Positions 1 through 53,970 of a stretch of DNA of 64,000 nt are shown piece by piece. Under the pieces are notes generated by a model. It did no database searches and had not been told where the DNA came from. It was given only the letters and a program-made list of their open reading frames with translations. The stretch is from Litchfieldia sinesaloumensis (lineage in GTDB: Bacteria; Bacillota; Bacilli; Bacillales; Bacillaceae_L), in NCBI RefSeq assembly GCF_900156865.1, contig NZ_LT732529.1, positions 4,352,870 through 4,416,869 of the forward strand, written 5' to 3'. Position numbers and translations under genes: made by a program. Every line of letters begins with the position of its first letter. The stretch's first letter is position 1.

Positions 1-584
1 TCGAAGCGGTGTTGCTTGGATGGGAAGAGGTCATCATGGAGGTGATGAAGACTCGAAGCGGTGTTGCTTGGATGGGAAGAGGTCATCATGGAGGTGATGA
101 AGACCTGAAGCGGTGTTACTTGGACGGAAAGAGGTCATCATGGAGGTGATGAAGACTCGAGGCTGTGTTGTTTGGTAGTGAAGAGGTCATCATGGAAGTG
201 ATGAAGACTCGAAGACAGTTAGATTGCTAGAGGTTAGGTCATCATGGAGGTGATGAAGACTCGAGGCTGTGTTGTTTGGTAGTGAAGAGGTCATCATGGA
301 GGTGATGAAGACTCGAAGACAGTTAGATTGCTAGAGGTTAGGTCTTCATCAAAGCGATGAAGAGGAAAACACAGCAAAAGCCGGAAAGAAATCCCCTTCA
401 TCAAGGGCATGAAGGGGAAAACACAGCAAAAACCGGATAGAAATCCCCTTCATCAAGGGCATGAAGGGGAAAACACAGCAAAAGCGAGATAGAAATCCCC
501 TTCATCAAGTCTATGAAGGGGAAAACACAGCAAAAGCCGGATAGAAATCCCCTTCATCAAGTCTATGAAGGGGAAAACACAGCA
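1..584. repeat. 52-bp tandem repeat array with hairpin cores (locus A)
   Basis: Eleven units with an exact 52-bp period. In units 1-7 the segment beginning GTCATC or GTCTTC starts at 30, 82, 134, 186, 238, 290 and 342. Counting from CTTCAT, units 7-11 start at 344, 396, 448, 500 and 552. Each unit has an imperfect inverted repeat: early units pair TCATCA with TGATGA around GGAG, and units 8-11 pair CCCCTTCAT with ATGAAGGGG around a 7-base loop (393-401 with 409-417). The rest of each unit is also conserved but in several versions. The array runs off the left edge. 52 is not a multiple of 3, so it is not a repeated peptide. Bases 585-681 hold nothing I can identify. Function unknown. Confidence 0.9.
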
Positions 585-681
585 AGCATCAATCCGAAAC
601 CCTTCCACTAGTGCCCATTACAAATCAACCCACAAAACACCGCATAACTTACCACACACACTCCCAACCACAAACCAATAC

Positions 682-821: not shown

Positions 822-1712
822 TTACCCTTTTACAGAACCAGCTGCCATACCTTCAACGATTTTATCGCTTAAGAATAAGAAGGCAAGTAGGATTGGTACG
901 ATACTGATAACGAGTGTTGCACCAATTGCGCCCCAGTCCGTTAGATATTGACCGACGAAGTTATTGATCCCAACTGTTAGTGTTTTCCACTTATCTGAAC
1001 TGATGAATGTATTTACAAATACGAATTCGTTCCAGTTGTAGATCATGTTGATAATTGCTGTTGTTGATAGCACGGGCACTGTCATTGGAAGTGTAATTTG
1101 GAAGAAGATTCGGTGAATCGAACATCCATCCATAACCGCTGCTTCTTCAATTTCCCGTGGGAATGTTTTATAAAAACCGAGTAAAATCATAATTGTTAAC
1201 GGCAAGTTAAATGCTGTATAGGATAATACAATTGATATCGGGTTATCTATTAAGTTTGCACTATTATACATTTTGAATAGTGGGATAATAGTTGAATGTA
1301 ACGGAATCATATAAGCGACTAAGAATAATCCAAGTACAAGGCCGCTAAATTTCCAGTGCATTCGTGTTACTGCAAACGTTACAAAACTCGCAAGAATGAT
1401 TGTTAAAACAACTGATAATACTGTAATCCAAACGCTGTTAAAGAAGTAGACTCCGATATTTCCAGAAGTCCAGGCTTTCGTATAGTTTCCCCATTGTGGG
1501 TCTTGTGGTAAAGCGAATGGAGACATACCAAAAACTTCTTTGTTTGATTTTAGAGAAAAGAATAGTAACCAAACCAATGGGTAGATTTGAATGATGGCAA
1601 ATCCACCTAGGAAGAGATAAAGAAGTCCAAAGCCGATTTTGCTCAATAGGGATTTCTTTGGTTTTTCCATAGAAAGGTTTGGTGTTGACTGTTGTGTACG
1701 AACCTCACTCAT
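822..1712 (-). CDS. Carbohydrate ABC transporter permease, MalG/CUT1 type
   Basis: Inner-membrane permease of a binding-protein-dependent sugar importer (296 aa). About six hydrophobic segments are visible, starting at residue ~25. The EAA loop that contacts the ATPase reads EEAAVMDGCSIHRIFFQ near residue 190. The protein ends in GSVKG, as many MalG-type permeases do. The minus-strand start has GAGGGAG about 8 bases upstream. It is the last gene of the set binding protein, permease 1, permease 2, with 16 bases between the two permease genes. No ATPase gene is present, so a shared MsmX-type ATPase elsewhere is likely. The sugar cannot be told from sequence. Confidence 0.93.
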   Translation of the reverse strand: MSEVRTQQSTPNLSMEKPKKSLLSKIGFGLLYLFLGGFAIIQIYPLVWLLFFSLKSNKEVFGMSPFALPQDPQWGNYTKAWTSGNIGVYFFNSVWITVLSVVLTIILASFVTFAVTRMHWKFSGLVLGLFLVAYMIPLHSTIIPLFKMYNSANLIDNPISIVLSYTAFNLPLTIMILLGFYKTFPREIEEAAVMDGCSIHRIFFQITLPMTVPVLSTTAIINMIYNWNEFVFVNTFISSDKWKTLTVGINNFVGQYLTDWGAIGATLVISIVPILLAFLFLSDKIVEGMAAGSVKG

Positions 1713-1728
1713 TTTGATTCACTCCCTC

Positions 1729-2607
1729 TTATAATTGAACATCGTCTTTAGATTTCGTTAATTGAGATGTAATAAATGTCATGACTAGACAGATAACTAA
1801 TAGTCCAAATCCGATTGCACTACCATATCCGAAGTTGTTTAATTTAAACGCTTCTTTGTACATGTAAGAGGCCATTACTTCACTTGCTCCGTTTGGTCCT
1901 CCACCAGTCATAACGTAGATTAAATCAAAGTATTTCAATGATCCCACAACTGCAAGCATAATCGTTACTTTAAATACACCAGAGATTAGTGGTAATTTAA
2001 TTTTATAGGCAATTTGAAATGGAGTTGCGCCATCGATTTTTGCAGCTTCAATGACTTCATCAGGTACATTTTTTAATGCTGCATAGTAAATTAAGATGTA
2101 AAAACCTGCGTATTGCCAAATGATTGGAATGAAGATTGCATACAGCGCAATTTTCGGATCAGCTAACCAAATCGGTGTGTTTTCAACACCAAAGAACTCA
2201 AGCAATTTGTTTGCCATACCGTTAGTTGGGTCGAAAATCTTCATCCAAAGCTGAGCAATTGCAACTGAAGATAATAGCATTGGAATTAAATAAATCTTAC
2301 GTAAAAGATCAGAGCCTTTGATTTTGCTAGCAAGAATAAGAGAAATCCCTAAGTAAAGAATTAAGCTAGCAGTAGAGAAGATTGCTAATAAAAATGAATG
2401 CCAGGTACTAGACCAAAATAATTTATCTTGTACTAAAGTAACGTAGTTGTCTAATCCGATAAACGTCATCTCACCAATTCCGTCCCAATCCATGAGGCCA
2501 TAGTAGCCAGATAATCCGATAGGGATATAGATGAGGACAAGAATGAGAAGTAAAGCAGGGAGTGTATAAAGGGCGATAACGAATTTATTCGACATCACAT
2601 TTTTCAT
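1729..2607 (-). CDS. Carbohydrate ABC transporter permease, MalF/CUT1 type
   Basis: Partner permease (292 aa) of the gene at 822-1712; the two should form a heterodimeric sugar channel. A long hydrophobic N-terminal segment (about residues 8-30) is followed by further membrane segments and an EAA loop, EAAKIDGATPFQIAYKIKLP, around residues 190-210. The length fits the short MalF-like permeases of Gram-positive CUT1 systems. GGAAGGGG lies just upstream of the ATG. A 72-base gap with a hairpin separates it from the binding protein gene. Identification as a sugar permease is firm; the substrate is unknown. Confidence 0.93.
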   Translation of the reverse strand: MKNVMSNKFVIALYTLPALLLILVLIYIPIGLSGYYGLMDWDGIGEMTFIGLDNYVTLVQDKLFWSSTWHSFLLAIFSTASLILYLGISLILASKIKGSDLLRKIYLIPMLLSSVAIAQLWMKIFDPTNGMANKLLEFFGVENTPIWLADPKIALYAIFIPIIWQYAGFYILIYYAALKNVPDEVIEAAKIDGATPFQIAYKIKLPLISGVFKVTIMLAVVGSLKYFDLIYVMTGGGPNGASEVMASYMYKEAFKLNNFGYGSAIGFGLLVICLVMTFITSQLTKSKDDVQL

Positions 2608-2635
2608 AGTTTTGCCCCTTCCTTTCTATAAAGAA

Positions 2636-2664
2636 GAGGACATATTTACAAGCAATATGCCCTC
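2636..2664 (-). promoter_or_regulatory. Intercistronic hairpin between binding protein and permease genes
   Basis: GAGG-A-CATATT pairs with AATATG-C-CCTC (10 of 11 positions) around a short loop, in the 72-base gap between the binding-protein stop and the first permease start. No T-run follows on the minus strand, so it looks like an mRNA stabiliser or partial attenuator, as is common after binding-protein genes that need more product than the permeases. Inferred from position and structure only. Confidence 0.45.
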
Positions 2665-2679
2665 TCTCTTAAGCCACAA

Positions 2680-3987
2680 TTATTTTTCGGCAGCAAGAGC
2701 TTCCTCTTGTGTTTTTGCAAAATCCTCTGGAGTTGTTTGACCGCCAAATAATGCTTGAATTTGATTTAAGTGAACATCAGCTACACCAGCAGACATTTGA
2801 ACATCTGCATAAAGTGTTAAGTTAGTTGCTTTTCCTAAGTCGTTAAGAATATCAATATACATTGGGTGAAGGTCACCGTTCGATGTATCTACAACTGTTG
2901 CTGGAATTACACCAGCGTCTACAACTGAACGCTTGCCCCACTCATCAACTAGGTAAGAAACAAAGTCTTTTGCTTCATCTTTTACTTTTGATTGTTCAGA
3001 TACGAATAAACCAACACCAGGTCCACCTACATAGCTGTCGATATCACCTTTACCGCCTTCATAGGTAGGGAACTTGAAGTAACCAACTTTGTCTTTGAAC
3101 GCTTGATCCACATCTGGAGTTGTTGTGTAGTTTGGTAATTCCCAAGTTGCCATTAAGTACATAGCTGCTTGTTCGTTCATGAAATAACCTTTTGCTTCAT
3201 CATTAGATAGACCATTAAATCCTTTAACGAATGCATCCATTTCAACAAGTTTTTCGATTTCTTCAGCTGCTTTTACAAGTGCTGGGTCTTCGAAGGTACC
3301 AGTACGGTTGATTGCATTATTTAATGTTTCAGGACCACCGATTCTGTCAGCAAGGTACATATACCACATAGAACCTGTCCAACGGTCTTTGTTTCCTAAA
3401 GTGATTGGAGTGACACCGTTATCAACTAGTGTTTCAACAACATTTAAGAATTCATCATATGTTTCTGGTACTTCTAGGTTGTTTTGTTCAAAGATTTCTT
3501 TATTGTAATAAACTGGAGTAATGTTAAGTTCTAATGGTAGAGCATATGTCTGTTCGTCAACTGAGAACGCATCAAGTGTACCAGCTACGAAATTGTCTTC
3601 TTGAACAATATCATCAAGTGGTGCAAACATATTTCCGTCAACGAAAGGCTTCATATAACCTGCAGCCCACGTAATACCTACGTCTGGAAGTTCATTTGAT
3701 GCAGATAATACTTTTACTTTTTCTTTGTATTGCTCGTTACCTAAGATTTCAGTTTGAATGTCTACATCAGGATTCTCTTCTTCGTAAGCTTTAATAATGT
3801 CATCCACAATTGTGAACTGAGCATTAGAGCTACCCTCAGGCCATAAATGCATCATTTTCACTACTGTTTTATCGCTGCTAGATCCACCTGAATCTTTAGA
3901 TGTGTCATCTGATGAGGAACATCCTCCTAAAATTAATCCACCAGCTAATGCCATTGACATCATGGTAGCAAACGCTTTCTTTTTCAT
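2680..3987 (-). CDS. Sugar ABC transporter substrate-binding lipoprotein
   Basis: Extracellular solute-binding protein, family 1 (435 aa). The signal peptide starts MKKKAF, has a hydrophobic core and ends in a lipobox with Cys at residue 23 (LILGGC), followed by a Ser/Asp/Gly-rich linker. The mature part shows the typical fold pattern, such as HLWPEG near the start, ALPLELN and a GGPGVGLF segment. It captures an extracellular carbohydrate and delivers it to the two downstream permeases. It lies directly downstream of the YesM/YesN-type two-component genes, which probably control it; 108 bases separate them, enough for its own promoter. Substrate unknown. Confidence 0.93.
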   Translation of the reverse strand: MKKKAFATMMSMALAGGLILGGCSSSDDTSKDSGGSSSDKTVVKMMHLWPEGSSNAQFTIVDDIIKAYEEENPDVDIQTEILGNEQYKEKVKVLSASNELPDVGITWAAGYMKPFVDGNMFAPLDDIVQEDNFVAGTLDAFSVDEQTYALPLELNITPVYYNKEIFEQNNLEVPETYDEFLNVVETLVDNGVTPITLGNKDRWTGSMWYMYLADRIGGPETLNNAINRTGTFEDPALVKAAEEIEKLVEMDAFVKGFNGLSNDEAKGYFMNEQAAMYLMATWELPNYTTTPDVDQAFKDKVGYFKFPTYEGGKGDIDSYVGGPGVGLFVSEQSKVKDEAKDFVSYLVDEWGKRSVVDAGVIPATVVDTSNGDLHPMYIDILNDLGKATNLTLYADVQMSAGVADVHLNQIQALFGGQTTPEDFAKTQEEALAAEK

Positions 3988-4095
3988 TAATCAAAACCCC
4001 CTTGTTTTGTTTAGGTCTTTTTACTTACAAATTAAGTCTATCATCGAAGGAATAATCAAAAAAGGGAACTATGATTGGGAAAAGTACTACTATTT

Positions 4096-4881
4096 TTAGA
4101 AAGCCCTTTCATTGCCTGTCTTTCGGTATGTTGTTGGTGTCATATCCTCATATTCTTTAAAGATTTTAATAAAATACTTAGCTGTTTTATACCCAACTTC
4201 CTCTGCAATCTCATTGATGGTTAGCTTGGTAGATAGAAGTAATTCTTTGGCGCGTTGAACTCTACGTCTCGTTACATACTCGCTAAAGTTAACATTCATT
4301 TCTTCTTTAAAGAGTACGCTAAAATAACTAGGGTTCAGGTGAACGTGAGCCGCAACATCTTTCTGGGTGATTTCATCTTTTAGGTGGAGGTCGATGTAGG
4401 CGATTGCGTCACGAATTGCATTAGATGTAGTTTCTATTTTCGTGGTTGCGTCAACAATTTTTTTGTCGACTACTTTTTCGATCATTCCAGCTCTAAACTT
4501 TTTCTCTAAGACTTGTAATGCTTCTTCAACCGCTTCAATCAATTTAGTTTTGCTAATGGGCTTTAATAGATAGTTTACTACGCCAAGACGAAGTGCTTCT
4601 TGCGCGTACTCAAATTGTGAATAGGCAGATATAACAATGACGACAGGGGACATGCCTCTATCCTTAATCGTTTTTAAGAGCTGAAGGCCTGTCATTTCGG
4701 GCATCCGTATATCTGACAGCAAGATATGAATCTTTTGTTTTTCTGCAATTTGTAATACTTCCTCACCGCTTTCAGCAGTGAGGATATTATATTCACCATT
4801 ATTCCAGCTTTCCAACGTTCTTTGCAAACCTTGTCTTGTTCTTGGTTCATCATCAACAATCACAATATTTTTGATAAACAT
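4096..4881 (-). CDS. YesN-type response regulator (receiver + AraC DNA-binding domain)
   Basis: Cytoplasmic transcription regulator, 261 aa from the chosen ATG. The receiver domain covers residues ~4-120, with acidic pair D10/D11, phospho-acceptor D57 in LLSDIRMPEMTG and K107 in YLLKPI. The C-terminal ~100 residues form an AraC-type double helix-turn-helix (INEIAEEVGYKTAKYFIKIF then TPTTYRK). An upstream in-frame start exists, but the ATG at 4881 has GGGGGGA at proper spacing and begins right at the receiver domain. It starts one base after the kinase stop, so the two are translationally linked. It probably activates the adjacent sugar importer in response to the kinase. Confidence 0.93.
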   Translation of the reverse strand: MFIKNIVIVDDEPRTRQGLQRTLESWNNGEYNILTAESGEEVLQIAEKQKIHILLSDIRMPEMTGLQLLKTIKDRGMSPVVIVISAYSQFEYAQEALRLGVVNYLLKPISKTKLIEAVEEALQVLEKKFRAGMIEKVVDKKIVDATTKIETTSNAIRDAIAYIDLHLKDEITQKDVAAHVHLNPSYFSVLFKEEMNVNFSEYVTRRRVQRAKELLLSTKLTINEIAEEVGYKTAKYFIKIFKEYEDMTPTTYRKTGNERAF

Positions 4882-4882
4882 G

Positions 4883-6604
4883 TTATTTCCCCCCACTCGG
4901 GATTTCAAATGAAATCCGTGTTCCTTTGTTTGGTTCACTTTCAATTAGTAGTTCGGAATGCAAGTTCTCGTTGTAATACAATCGTAAGCGTTTATTTACA
5001 TTTGAGATGGCAATGCCAGTTCCTCTTGTGGACTCGACACCACCCTTATTCGTTGATTCTGTAATTTGGTGAATGCGTTCTTGATCCATGCCTGGGCCAT
5101 CGTCCTGAACGATTATTCGTATCCTATCGGTACTTACAGGTTCAACTGTAACCGTGACTAAGCTATCGCCGACCTTATTTCCAGCCCCGTGTAAGATTGC
5201 ATTTTCCACAAGTGGTTGAATGATTAATTTGGGGATTTGGACTTGCTTGAATTCTTCTGGAACGGATACCCTCCAATGGAGTCGATCTCCAAAACGCATC
5301 TTCATAATTTCCATATAGTCGCCGATGTGCTTAATTTCATCTTTTAAGAAGACCCAATCATCATCTGTTTCTTTTGTAATGGTGTATCGAAATAAATCTG
5401 ACATCGCAATGACCACTTCAGATAGCTCTTCTTCATTTTTTTCCTCCAGTGACCAGTGAAGCGCATCTAAGGTATTGAAGAGAAAATGTGGATTTATTTG
5501 AGCTTGAAGGGCTTTTAGCTCACTTCGGCTGCGTAAAATCTCTTTTTGATAGACCATTCGGATTAAATGATTTGTCTCTTTTACTAATTGGTTGTAAGTA
5601 CTGTTAAGTTCATTAATCTCATTGACTGAAGAAACACTTGGGTTCAGGGTTAAGGCCCCTTGCCCGGCGCGTTGCATGGTCTTAGTAAGTCGAACAATTG
5701 GCCTAGTAATAACCGTTGACAAGAATAATGAAAAAATCATAAATATTATCGCTCCAGCAACACCAGATAAGATGATACTTGTCCGTATCCCTGCGAGCCC
5801 CTTGGTGAGTTCACTGACCGGAGTTAAAATAAAAACCGTCCATCCGGTGAGGTCCGATGTTTCCTTATTCACAATATAATCGCCTTTATCTAAGTGAACA
5901 GTGCCTTTCGGATTAGAAATAATCTCTGCAAGGTCGCCATTGTAATTCTGAACAATTGGCGTATCGTTTTCGTCTAATAGAATTGAATATCGATTATTTG
6001 GTGTTGCGAATTGAAAATGCTCGCGATTAATACTGACTAATAGGTAACCGCCATTTATATACTTACGTTCAATTAAACTAACCCTTCGAATGGCCAGAAA
6101 GAAATTTTTATCATGTGGGTCTTCTCCAATCCAGACTAATCCACCCTTAGCCACGTCAGCTTTTTTAATCCAATTTCTATTGATACGATTTTTCAGCAAG
6201 GCTTCATCAAGTGGTATTACACGCTTCTGGTCCTTTGAGAAAAGTTGAAACTCAAAAATACCATCAGTGTTCCCCATAATCCGGTTAACATGGCCCACTA
6301 ATTGTTGTCGTTCCTGAAACGAAACTTCTGTACCGTCGTAGGTTTTCCTTAGGACTTCCTGAACGCCTTCGTCCGTAATGACGAGCTTAGATGACATATT
6401 AATTTGCTCGAATAAAGACTCAATTCTACCGTTTGCTTCAATTGCTACCTGATGGATTTGTTCTTCAGCATTAATCTTTAATAGATTAGATACCTGTCTT
6501 AAGGTTAATGAACCGACAATCAATAGAACAATAATCATCACAAATAAGAAGATGAGTAAAATTTGGTTACGTAATGTGTTCCATTTTTTTATTTTTTTAA
6601 GCAT
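4883..6604 (-). CDS. YesM-type sensor histidine kinase
   Basis: Membrane sensor kinase (573 aa) of the LytS/YesM class. Transmembrane segments at about 14-36 and 275-300 enclose a large extracellular sensing domain; a HAMP linker follows (TRPIVRLTKTMQRAG), then the histidine-kinase motif QINPHFLFNTLDALHW with H373. An ATPase domain follows, with QPLVENAILHG and DDGPGMD. It should phosphorylate the YesN-type regulator encoded one base downstream. In this family such pairs usually sense carbohydrate availability and control the neighbouring ABC importer, which fits here. Bases 6605-6882, divergent from the next gene, hold no clear operator. Confidence 0.93.
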   Translation of the reverse strand: MLKKIKKWNTLRNQILLIFLFVMIIVLLIVGSLTLRQVSNLLKINAEEQIHQVAIEANGRIESLFEQINMSSKLVITDEGVQEVLRKTYDGTEVSFQERQQLVGHVNRIMGNTDGIFEFQLFSKDQKRVIPLDEALLKNRINRNWIKKADVAKGGLVWIGEDPHDKNFFLAIRRVSLIERKYINGGYLLVSINREHFQFATPNNRYSILLDENDTPIVQNYNGDLAEIISNPKGTVHLDKGDYIVNKETSDLTGWTVFILTPVSELTKGLAGIRTSIILSGVAGAIIFMIFSLFLSTVITRPIVRLTKTMQRAGQGALTLNPSVSSVNEINELNSTYNQLVKETNHLIRMVYQKEILRSRSELKALQAQINPHFLFNTLDALHWSLEEKNEEELSEVVIAMSDLFRYTITKETDDDWVFLKDEIKHIGDYMEIMKMRFGDRLHWRVSVPEEFKQVQIPKLIIQPLVENAILHGAGNKVGDSLVTVTVEPVSTDRIRIIVQDDGPGMDQERIHQITESTNKGGVESTRGTGIAISNVNKRLRLYYNENLHSELLIESEPNKGTRISFEIPSGGK

Positions 6605-34837: not shown

Positions 34838-34844
34838 GTGGGAA

Positions 34845-35010
34845 TGAAGCGAAGAGGAGAAGTGGCGGCGAATCCTCTTCATAAGCGGTATGAAGGGGAA
34901 AAGTCGACAGGATGCAGCAGTGAATCCTCTTCATAAGCGGAGTGATGAGGAGAAACAGCAAGAAGAATGTTCGAATTCCTTTTCATTAACGCAAAAATAA
35001 ACCAAGAAAC
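34845..35010. repeat. 52-bp repeat array, short version (locus B)
   Basis: About two and a half units with CTTCATAAGCGG starting at 34877 and 34929, exactly 52 bases apart, and a degenerate TTTCATTAACGC at 34981, again 52 later. A partial half unit (GAATGAAGCGAAGAGGAGAAG) precedes. The conserved part, ATCCTCTTCATAAGCGG... then ATGAAGGGGAAAA, matches the type seen at loci A (units 7-11) and C, in the same orientation. It lies between the convergent ykuK- and yvbH-like genes. This accounts for most of the 325-base gap. Confidence 0.8.
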
Positions 35011-53412: not shown

Positions 53413-53900
53413 GTGTTGATGGATGAAAGGGAAGACGAAGCGGGATATTGTACCAAATCCTCTTCAAAAGAGTGATGAAAGGGAAAACGGATTGTTTGGG
53501 GGGCGAGAAATCCCGTTCATAAGCTCGATGAAGAGGAAAACGAAGCTCCGGGAAGAGAGAAATCCCGTTCATAGGCTCGATGAAGAGGAAAACGAAGTTC
53601 CGGGAAGAGAGAAATCCCGTTCATAGGCTCGATGAAAAGGAAAAAGATGAGGTATCTTGCCCCAAACCCCCTTCATAGCCTCGATGACAGGGAAAAGTGA
53701 GTGTCGTTGGGCGCAAACTCCTCTTCAAAGGTTTGATGAAAAGGAAAACGAAGTGTCAACTCGCGCGCAAACTCCTTCATAGCCCCGATGAAGTCCCGAA
53801 CGCCAAGAATCCCACGTCCGCAAAGTCCTTCATAGCCTCGATGAAATCCCGAATGCATGAATCTCCCGCACAAAAGTCCTTCATAACGAAATATTTCAAA
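53411..53900. repeat. 52-bp tandem repeat array (locus C)
   Basis: Nine units. TTCA of the core starts at 53463, 53516, 53568, 53620, 53672, 53724, 53776, 53829 and 53880, so intervals are 52 bases with single-base slips (53, then five of 52, 53, 51). Units at 53516-53620 read ATCCCGTTCATAGGCTCG then ATGAAGAGGAAAACG, with a ~20-base variable part. Later units decay, but TTCAT...GATGAA stays. Same orientation as the locus A (units 7-11) and locus B repeats. It fills the gap between the terminator and the paaA promoter. Frame shifts by one each unit, so it is not coding. Confidence 0.88.
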
Positions 53901-53970
53901 ATCCCACATCTAAAAAACCACCAATCTATTACGATTTAAAATTTGACGTCTAAAAAACAATATAAACATG

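Follow-up and report, generated by a model that had tools for sequence, protein, structure and literature searches.

Tandem repeats with a 52-nt unit, found in Bacillus and its relatives, are a published class whose function is unexplained (Subirana and Messeguer 2021, PMC8161180). According to its main text, sequences are not conserved between species, and the length of 52 nt is left without a reason; for the class with units of 20-21 nt, its authors noted the correspondence to two turns. Here we describe a 64,000-nt stretch of the Litchfieldia sinesaloumensis genome (the window), which begins with an array of 52-bp units (array A). Array A belongs to the 52-nt tandem repeats of Bacillus (PMC8161180). 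As in the published repeats with their constant period of 51-53 nt, 524 of the 533 spacings of 35-70 bp fall within 51-53, and there are several families per genome, which appear here as the arm classes X, Y and Z with many linker types. Further common properties are the noncoding nature, the occurrence in Bacillales, the patchy distribution by species and the short signals that are often accompanied by their reverse. The genus of the window is absent from the species names in Table 1 of PMC8161180. The core found in the window, TTCAT-N7-ATGAA, is present in one published family of B. coagulans and one of B. litoralis, and the shorter CAT-N7-ATG in two more. The best inverted repeat reached p <= 0.05 (composition shuffles) in 18 of the 27 consensus sequences tabulated there, and 4 of the 27 contain CAT-N7-ATG. 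Among the papers listed by literature searches, none was recognisable as a description of the core, of the matched arms or of the 10.4-bp phase reported below; a J Bacteriol 2020 paper by the same authors may contain part of it.

Organization of array A and its genomic setting

A preliminary description of this DNA stated that the units at positions 1-584 hold a 52-base period without a slip. This was borne out: the region contains eleven cores, and all ten spacings between them are exactly 52 (Table 1). Self-identity of array A is 0.82 at lag 52 versus 0.29 at lag 51 and 0.28 at lag 53 (maximum of 2000 shuffles, 0.325), and the period was confirmed by Tandem Repeats Finder. All eleven cores match TTCAT-N7-ATGAA, cores 1-6 with one mismatch (ATCAT for TTCAT). 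The first six units have the arms GGTC(A)TCAT/ATGAAGAC (class Y) and the last four the arms CCCCTTCAT/ATGAAGGGG with the outer arms CCCC/GGGG (class X), and the unit at their junction is a hybrid of the two classes. Thus, the matched arm changes between units that had been pointed out are real, although the TCATCA/TGATGA pairing proposed for the first six units is a shifted register of the shared core. The array is noncoding, as had been proposed, with 8 to 13 stops per frame in the six-frame translation of 1-584. It was also correctly held not to be a CRISPR, since the stretches between the cores are themselves repeated. The window has no match at the gathering score to any Rfam 15 family (0 matches), and none to a CRISPR RNA family among them.

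Table 1. Positions of the repeat arrays in the window.
Feature	Position	Strand	Remarks
Array A, class Y units (arms GGTC/GACY), cores at 33, 85, 137, 189, 241, 293	1..340	+	extends past the left edge of the window
Junction core at 345: left arm class Y (GGTC), right arm class X (GAGGAAAA)	341..369	+	differs from the class X pattern by 2 mismatches
Array A, class X units (CCCCTTCAT-N7-ATGAAGGGGAAAA), cores at 397, 449, 501, 553	370..585	+	Tandem Repeats Finder, core pattern
Second array of the same family, two cores (34878, 34930)	34839..34970	+	flanked by convergent genes (ORF-based calls)
Third array of the same family (locus B), cores 53463 to 53829	53459..53885	+	

A whole-genome pattern search detected four more cores to the left of the window in 416-bp steps (8 x 52), which suggests that a long higher-order repeat continues array A. 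To its right, positions 822-6604 of the minus strand contain an apparent operon for a carbohydrate ABC transporter, with genes named from their translations as two permeases, a solute-binding lipoprotein, an AraC-type response regulator and a sensor kinase. Between array A and this operon, at positions 682-731, lies a strong inverted repeat that ends in a T run (AAAAAGACAGATAGGAA...TTCCTATCTGTCTTTTTT); judged by eye, this is where transcription of the transporter genes probably has its real terminator.

Two further arrays of the family were found in the window (Table 1). Both genes flanking the third one are shared with four related genomes (loci L155, L180, L232 and L239) and one of them with a fifth (L204). 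An 80-aa ORF at 53697-53939, which overlaps the end of the third array, is probably spurious. Flanking genes are shared across species for a number of the 94 arrays in eight genomes, and therefore some array positions are kept while the linkers turn over. When the genes flanking the third array were sought in genomes without cores, as markers of an orthologous empty site, five of nine genomes gave matches, the best at 29-31% identity; these are therefore paralogs. Elsewhere in the own genome (L084, C3:4195000-4210000), a class Y array has genes of 122, 161 and 240 codons on either side, arranged in identical order. This resembles a segmental duplication in tandem with arrays at its borders, in a locus that contains N. 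Positions 1-600 of the window had no match in 72,556 plasmid records (blastn, E 1e-5), a set from which records near the own genome may be excluded.

The gene neighbourhood bears on the possibility that the units are stacked transcription terminators or insulators at gene ends. Among 61 oriented arrays with both neighbours called (ORF-based), the neighbours are convergent in 21 cases, which would suit such a role, divergent in 10 and co-directional in 30. In addition, the class X units gave 8 terminator-like matches on the minus strand (four of them nested in the other four) at positions 1-1000, compared to 0.9 in shuffles. However, on the side from which transcription would enter the hairpin and then the T-rich stretch, the gene is directed towards the array in 33 of 65 cases, which is no preference; the tail (TTTCTATC) is weak, the terminator-like matches include none of the class Y units in the window, and terminators have no need of a constant spacing. 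We consider this explanation very unlikely.

In the own genome, the orientation of class X arrays seemed to be linked to the leading strand (dnaA at C3:3577065), with one clear exception at C3:3362555. For 68 arrays, 47 agreed with this orientation, 12 disagreed, 8 were undecided and 1 was ambiguous; by ortholog group, 25 of 32 agreed, one tie being omitted. Since GGAAAA is already on the leading strand in 66% (171/259) of its occurrences in noncoding non-array DNA, replication polarity was dropped as a special property: against this background, p is 0.10 for the 25/32 groups and 0.016 for the uncollapsed 47/59 arrays, the latter uncorrected for shared descent.

Spread of the core in the genus, the order and the phylum

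Recurrence of the repeat, a point raised in the preliminary description, was found both elsewhere in the genome and in relatives. The own genome comprises 4.56 Mb in three contigs; 42 places in it match a class X query at E <= 10, many of them weakly, and CTTCAT-N{3,10}-ATGAAG occurs 56 times versus 5 times for the reversed control. The class X pattern with at most 2 mismatches is present in eight of nine genomes of the genus. In one genome of the same genus (G004), whole-genome core searches revealed neither the class X pattern nor paired TTCAT-N7-ATGAA cores, and no lag-52 segment was detected in about 220 kb from its contig starts (nine tiny contigs being N). G004 is thus a natural array-free sister of array-rich species.

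For the family, order and phylum sets, we searched for two TTCAT-N7-ATGAA cores with 37-67 bp between their starts. Such paired cores are present in 12 of 17 genomes of the family, covering all four genera, and in 57 of 397 genomes of the order, belonging to 28 of 135 genera; the reversed control was positive in one genome of the order. At least two core pairs were found in 48 genomes of 23 genera of the order, and a single pair in nine genomes. In the phylum sample, paired cores were detected in 2 of 398 genomes, one of which is the own genome. Seven of the 398 fall within the order, and outside it the one positive genome among 391 has a spacing of 45. Thirty loci of the order, each from a different genome, were inspected for spacing: 27 have a pair 51-53 apart, and the remaining three, with spacings of 48, 55 and 57, are all from single-pair genomes. 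Over these 30 loci, 108 of the 117 spacings in the range 37-67 are exactly 52. The outer arms vary between genera, Lysinibacillus composti and Ornithinibacillus halotolerans included, and the presence of arrays is patchy within genera.

Constancy of length, A/T phase and arm matching

To describe the spacing, 942 cores (at most one mismatch) were collected regardless of their distance from each other in 92 regions of eight genomes of the genus. Among the 533 core-to-core distances of 35-70 bp, 491 are exactly 52, 33 are 51 or 53, and 9 have other values. The loop is similarly constant: 480 exact cores have a loop of 7 bp, versus 5-16 cores for each of the lengths 4-6 and 8-10. When adjacent modules were compared, 56 of 419 pairs differed in length and the 363 pairs of equal length contained 2885 substitutions, a ratio of 0.019. 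With restriction to the 316 equal-length pairs that are less than 35% different (1931 substitutions), the ratio is 0.029. The resulting deficit of indels is conservative, because counts of adjacent pairs take one odd unit twice. In orthologous noncoding DNA outside of arrays (genome G001 compared to G002 and G003, in segments of 45 alignment columns), 82 of 314 segments changed in length and 465 substitutions were counted in the remaining segments, corresponding to 0.176. Thus, relative to substitutions, changes in length are six- to ninefold less frequent in the arrays than in neighbouring noncoding DNA, a factor that gives the order of magnitude only, since tandem copies are compared with orthologs and the processes are not identical. 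Indels were scored here as net length change; a count of aligner gaps, which includes balancing gaps added by the aligner, instead gives 241 events and a ratio of 0.081, versus 0.129 in noncoding DNA.

This deficit has to be weighed against the view that the arrays are a selfish or neutral satellite, which spreads and is homogenised by recombination at the shared core, the 52 bp being inherited or imposed by the copying. The patchy presence within genera, the same-genus genome without arrays and the restriction of module junctions to cores (see below) are all in line with it, and tandem copies rebuilt from their neighbours could also lower the rate of length changes. However, neutral linkers would be expected to change in length at the rate of noncoding DNA; furthermore, several arrays are at syntenic places across the genus, and the A/T phase described next is common to published families without this core. 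In our opinion, a selfish or neutral satellite is an unlikely explanation.

The Fourier spectrum of the WW dinucleotides (AA, TT, AT) of 129 arrays, many of which are orthologs of each other, has its main peak at k=5, corresponding to 10.4 bp. The power per array is 27.8 at k=5, versus 4.2-5.5 for k=2-4 and k=6; k=7 has a power of 10.1 and k=9 one of 18.7, the k=9 peak probably reflecting spacings inside the TTCAT/ATGAA core. Normalised per unit, the k=5 power is 0.133 in 66 regions of the genus and 0.160 in 30 arrays of other genera, compared to 0.069 for noncoding (n = 3147) and 0.059 for coding (n = 1010) 52-mers taken from these genus regions. About 10% of the noncoding control 52-mers attain 0.160; therefore, single units are not diagnostic, but the class is. 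For the units of the window, k=5 ranks first of 20 harmonics in 6 of 11 and second to fourth in the rest.

The same phase is present in the consensus sequences of the 27 published families of 50-54 nt, with a k=5 power of 0.162, and in the 23 of them without CAT-N7-ATG, with 0.164 (null 0.065-0.066, sd 0.012-0.013). None of 2000 block shuffles was as high; k=9 was also raised (p about 0.03). Outside of the core and arms, a fifth A/T patch is expected at the linker centre. Indeed, the A/T value is 0.56 there and 0.19 over the remaining linker (Wilcoxon p=3e-7; 31 of 37 loci, namely those with neighbours at exactly 52 bp, one genome each), and averages by genus give 0.48 versus 0.21 (14 genera, p=0.0006).

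The matching of the arms was analyzed between species at 37 loci, with the aim of one locus per genome. Three of them (L251, L270 and L273) were without units and were dropped; eleven of the 34 loci kept are from one genus, and two named records might duplicate a species in the set. Arm positions 6-10 are Watson-Crick matched in 132 of 170 cells, whereas shuffling of the right arms among loci gave a mean of 86.8 and a maximum of 112 (10,000 permutations). With one locus per genus (16 genera, 200 draws), the mean is 60.1 of 80 (range 51-65) versus 45.2 after permutation, with p at most 0.01. Since the excess of paired changes survives the shuffle test across genomes and with one locus per genus, the paired changes of the preliminary description are real. 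Its proposal that structure or symmetry is under selection holds in part: the symmetry is constrained, but the interpretation of matched changes as hairpin compensation is not supported, as the middle of the arm is without covariation in the genus.

The latter conclusion is based on 587 units from 67 regions of the genus. Positions 8-10 covary (Watson-Crick fractions of 0.73, 0.73 and 0.60; expected 0.39, 0.38 and 0.40), while in the same set covariation was found neither at position 6 (0.67 versus 0.65 expected) nor at position 7 (0.43 versus 0.43; chain-weighted). In 229 class X units, the combinations at position 7 are C/A in 78, T/A in 75, T/G in 38 and C/G in 19, and thus either pyrimidine is tolerated independently in both half-sites. 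Between species, position 7 covaries (28 of 34 versus 17.0 expected) and position 6 does not (24 of 34 versus 22.1).

The distribution of the arm classes gives a further indication. Y/Z mixtures aside, 16 class hybrids were found across the loop and 1 across the linker (Fisher p=0.0002 versus matched pairs). Mixtures of Y with Z are equal on both sides (45 across the loop, 45 across the linker); they are common because one arm class, GTCC...TCCC, is split by the three-letter class rule. These counts apply to the sorting into X, Y and Z; in 230 of 587 units and in 154 of 497 linker pairs, one or both arms belong to none of the three. Independently of classes, arm matching at positions 8-10 is 0.80, 0.83 and 0.72 across the linker versus 0.72, 0.71 and 0.65 across the loop. 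Arm class thus seems to go with the linker module. The class switches lie inside the cores, the sequence that is common to the classes.

These data are relevant for two other explanations. First, the arrays could be transcribed as hairpin RNAs acting as sponge or small RNAs, the core forming a stem-loop and the matched arm changes being compensatory. Single units are on average more stable than shuffles when folded (eight units, two of them identical, z -1.4 to -3.3), the arms are matched between species, position 7 included, and transcription of the 52-nt repeats of B. coagulans has been reported from RNA-seq (PMC8625621). However, more than half of the position 7 pairs of class X are broken or wobble pairs (C/A and T/G), the genus-level covariation leaves out positions 6-7, and the constant linker and loop lengths and the 10.4-bp A/T phase have no evident reason at the level of RNA; a constant linker length would be unexpected for an RNA hairpin. 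Since arm class is predicted by the linker and not by the stem, since switches occur within cores and since the mid-arm is without covariation in the genus, an RNA hairpin is disfavoured, and we regard it as quite improbable. More generally, the analysis of arm classes and linkers illustrates that tandem palindromes can mimic compensatory RNA covariation.

Second, the cores could be sites of a recombinase. Their geometry, with inverted half-sites around a 7-bp spacer, resembles that of tyrosine recombinase sites, in which case strand exchange would take place in the spacer, and the class junctions are indeed located in the core. Against this, the spacers can differ between adjacent units, and ordinary recombination would yield the same junctions, because the core is the only homology seen to be common to the classes. 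An array of recombinase core sites is therefore very unlikely.

A possible phased DNA scaffold and comparison with known systems

The explanation to which we give an even chance of being right is that the arrays are helically phased, curved DNA, which presents dimer sites on one face to a putative architectural protein. According to this proposal, the array would act as double-stranded DNA and not as RNA. Recognition of double-stranded DNA by a dimer is suggested by the half-site spacing, the unit length, the free linkers, the A/T phase and the matched half-sites. With its 52 bp, a unit would span five turns of the helix (5 x 10.4 bp), A/T patches recurring about once per turn, and consequently the array should be intrinsically curved or easily wrapped, a curvature that we infer from the dinucleotide phase. 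The inverted half-sites TTCAT...ATGAA and the matched outer arms, exactly 7 bp apart, would make up a dyad, and from unit to unit the dyads would lie on one and the same helix face. A dimeric DNA-binding or nucleoid protein could bind cooperatively to the dyads and thereby bend or wrap the array. The linker sequence would otherwise be free, only its length and A/T phase being held, and recombination may let the arrays grow and swap modules of 52 bp, the junctions being located within the core that they share.

Several observations argue against such a scaffold. The six class Y units of the window have a weaker phase (k=5 ranks 1 to 4 of 20), part of the k=5 power stems from the conserved core and arms themselves, and a second peak exists at k=9. 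At position 7, covariation between species is as in a stem. The main awkward fact is the presence of several arm classes per genome, which is difficult to reconcile with a single protein specificity. Coexisting arm classes could mean that there are several related proteins; alternatively, TTCAT-N7-ATGAA and the shape are recognised and the arms drift as symmetric pairs. Whatever the function of the arrays, it is dispensable, since some close relatives such as G004 are without them.

It is tempting to speculate, although we think this somewhat doubtful, that the 52-nt repeats of Bacillales in general are a wrapping satellite in which shape and not sequence is kept, with five turns, one A/T patch per turn and one dyad. 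If so, arrays of any sequence would provide a regular curved scaffold for a dedicated architectural protein, and the published 20-21 nt class would be a two-turn version of the same principle. A five-turn unit would offer a reason for the hitherto unexplained length of 52 bases. The presence of the core in at least 23 genera, the length constraint and the five-turn A/T phase turn a published enigma into a testable structural hypothesis, for which the dyad is a handle for identifying the bound protein. If the phased scaffold exists, bacteria would retain satellite DNA because of its mechanical shape, in a form that can in principle be compared with DNA favouring nucleosomes.

The array A family resembles REP/BIME palindromes, which are associated with RAYT transposases, in being intergenic, palindromic and dispersed, but differs from them by its strict tandem period of 52 bp. 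A link to REP/RAYT was rejected, as the presence of Y1_Tnp does not track the arrays: no Y1_Tnp match (E <= 0.001) was found in one genome of the family (G005) despite its 108 core pairs, and Y1_Tnp is present in the other 11 of the 12 core-bearing family genomes and in four of five without the core. Regular spacing and a palindromic element are shared with CRISPR arrays; in contrast to the unique CRISPR spacers, the linkers are repeated, and adjacent modules including their linkers have a median identity of 0.84. Phased A-tract curved DNA and nucleosome-positioning DNA have A/T dinucleotides once per helical turn, as do the arrays described here. However, in the latter the phase is tied to a fixed five-turn unit with one dyad per unit, and this in bacteria. 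Finally, beyond what was described for the 52-nt repeats of Bacillus (PMC8161180), the arrays have a core that is common to at least 23 genera, matched arms, a deficit of indels and a 10.4-bp phasing of A/T.
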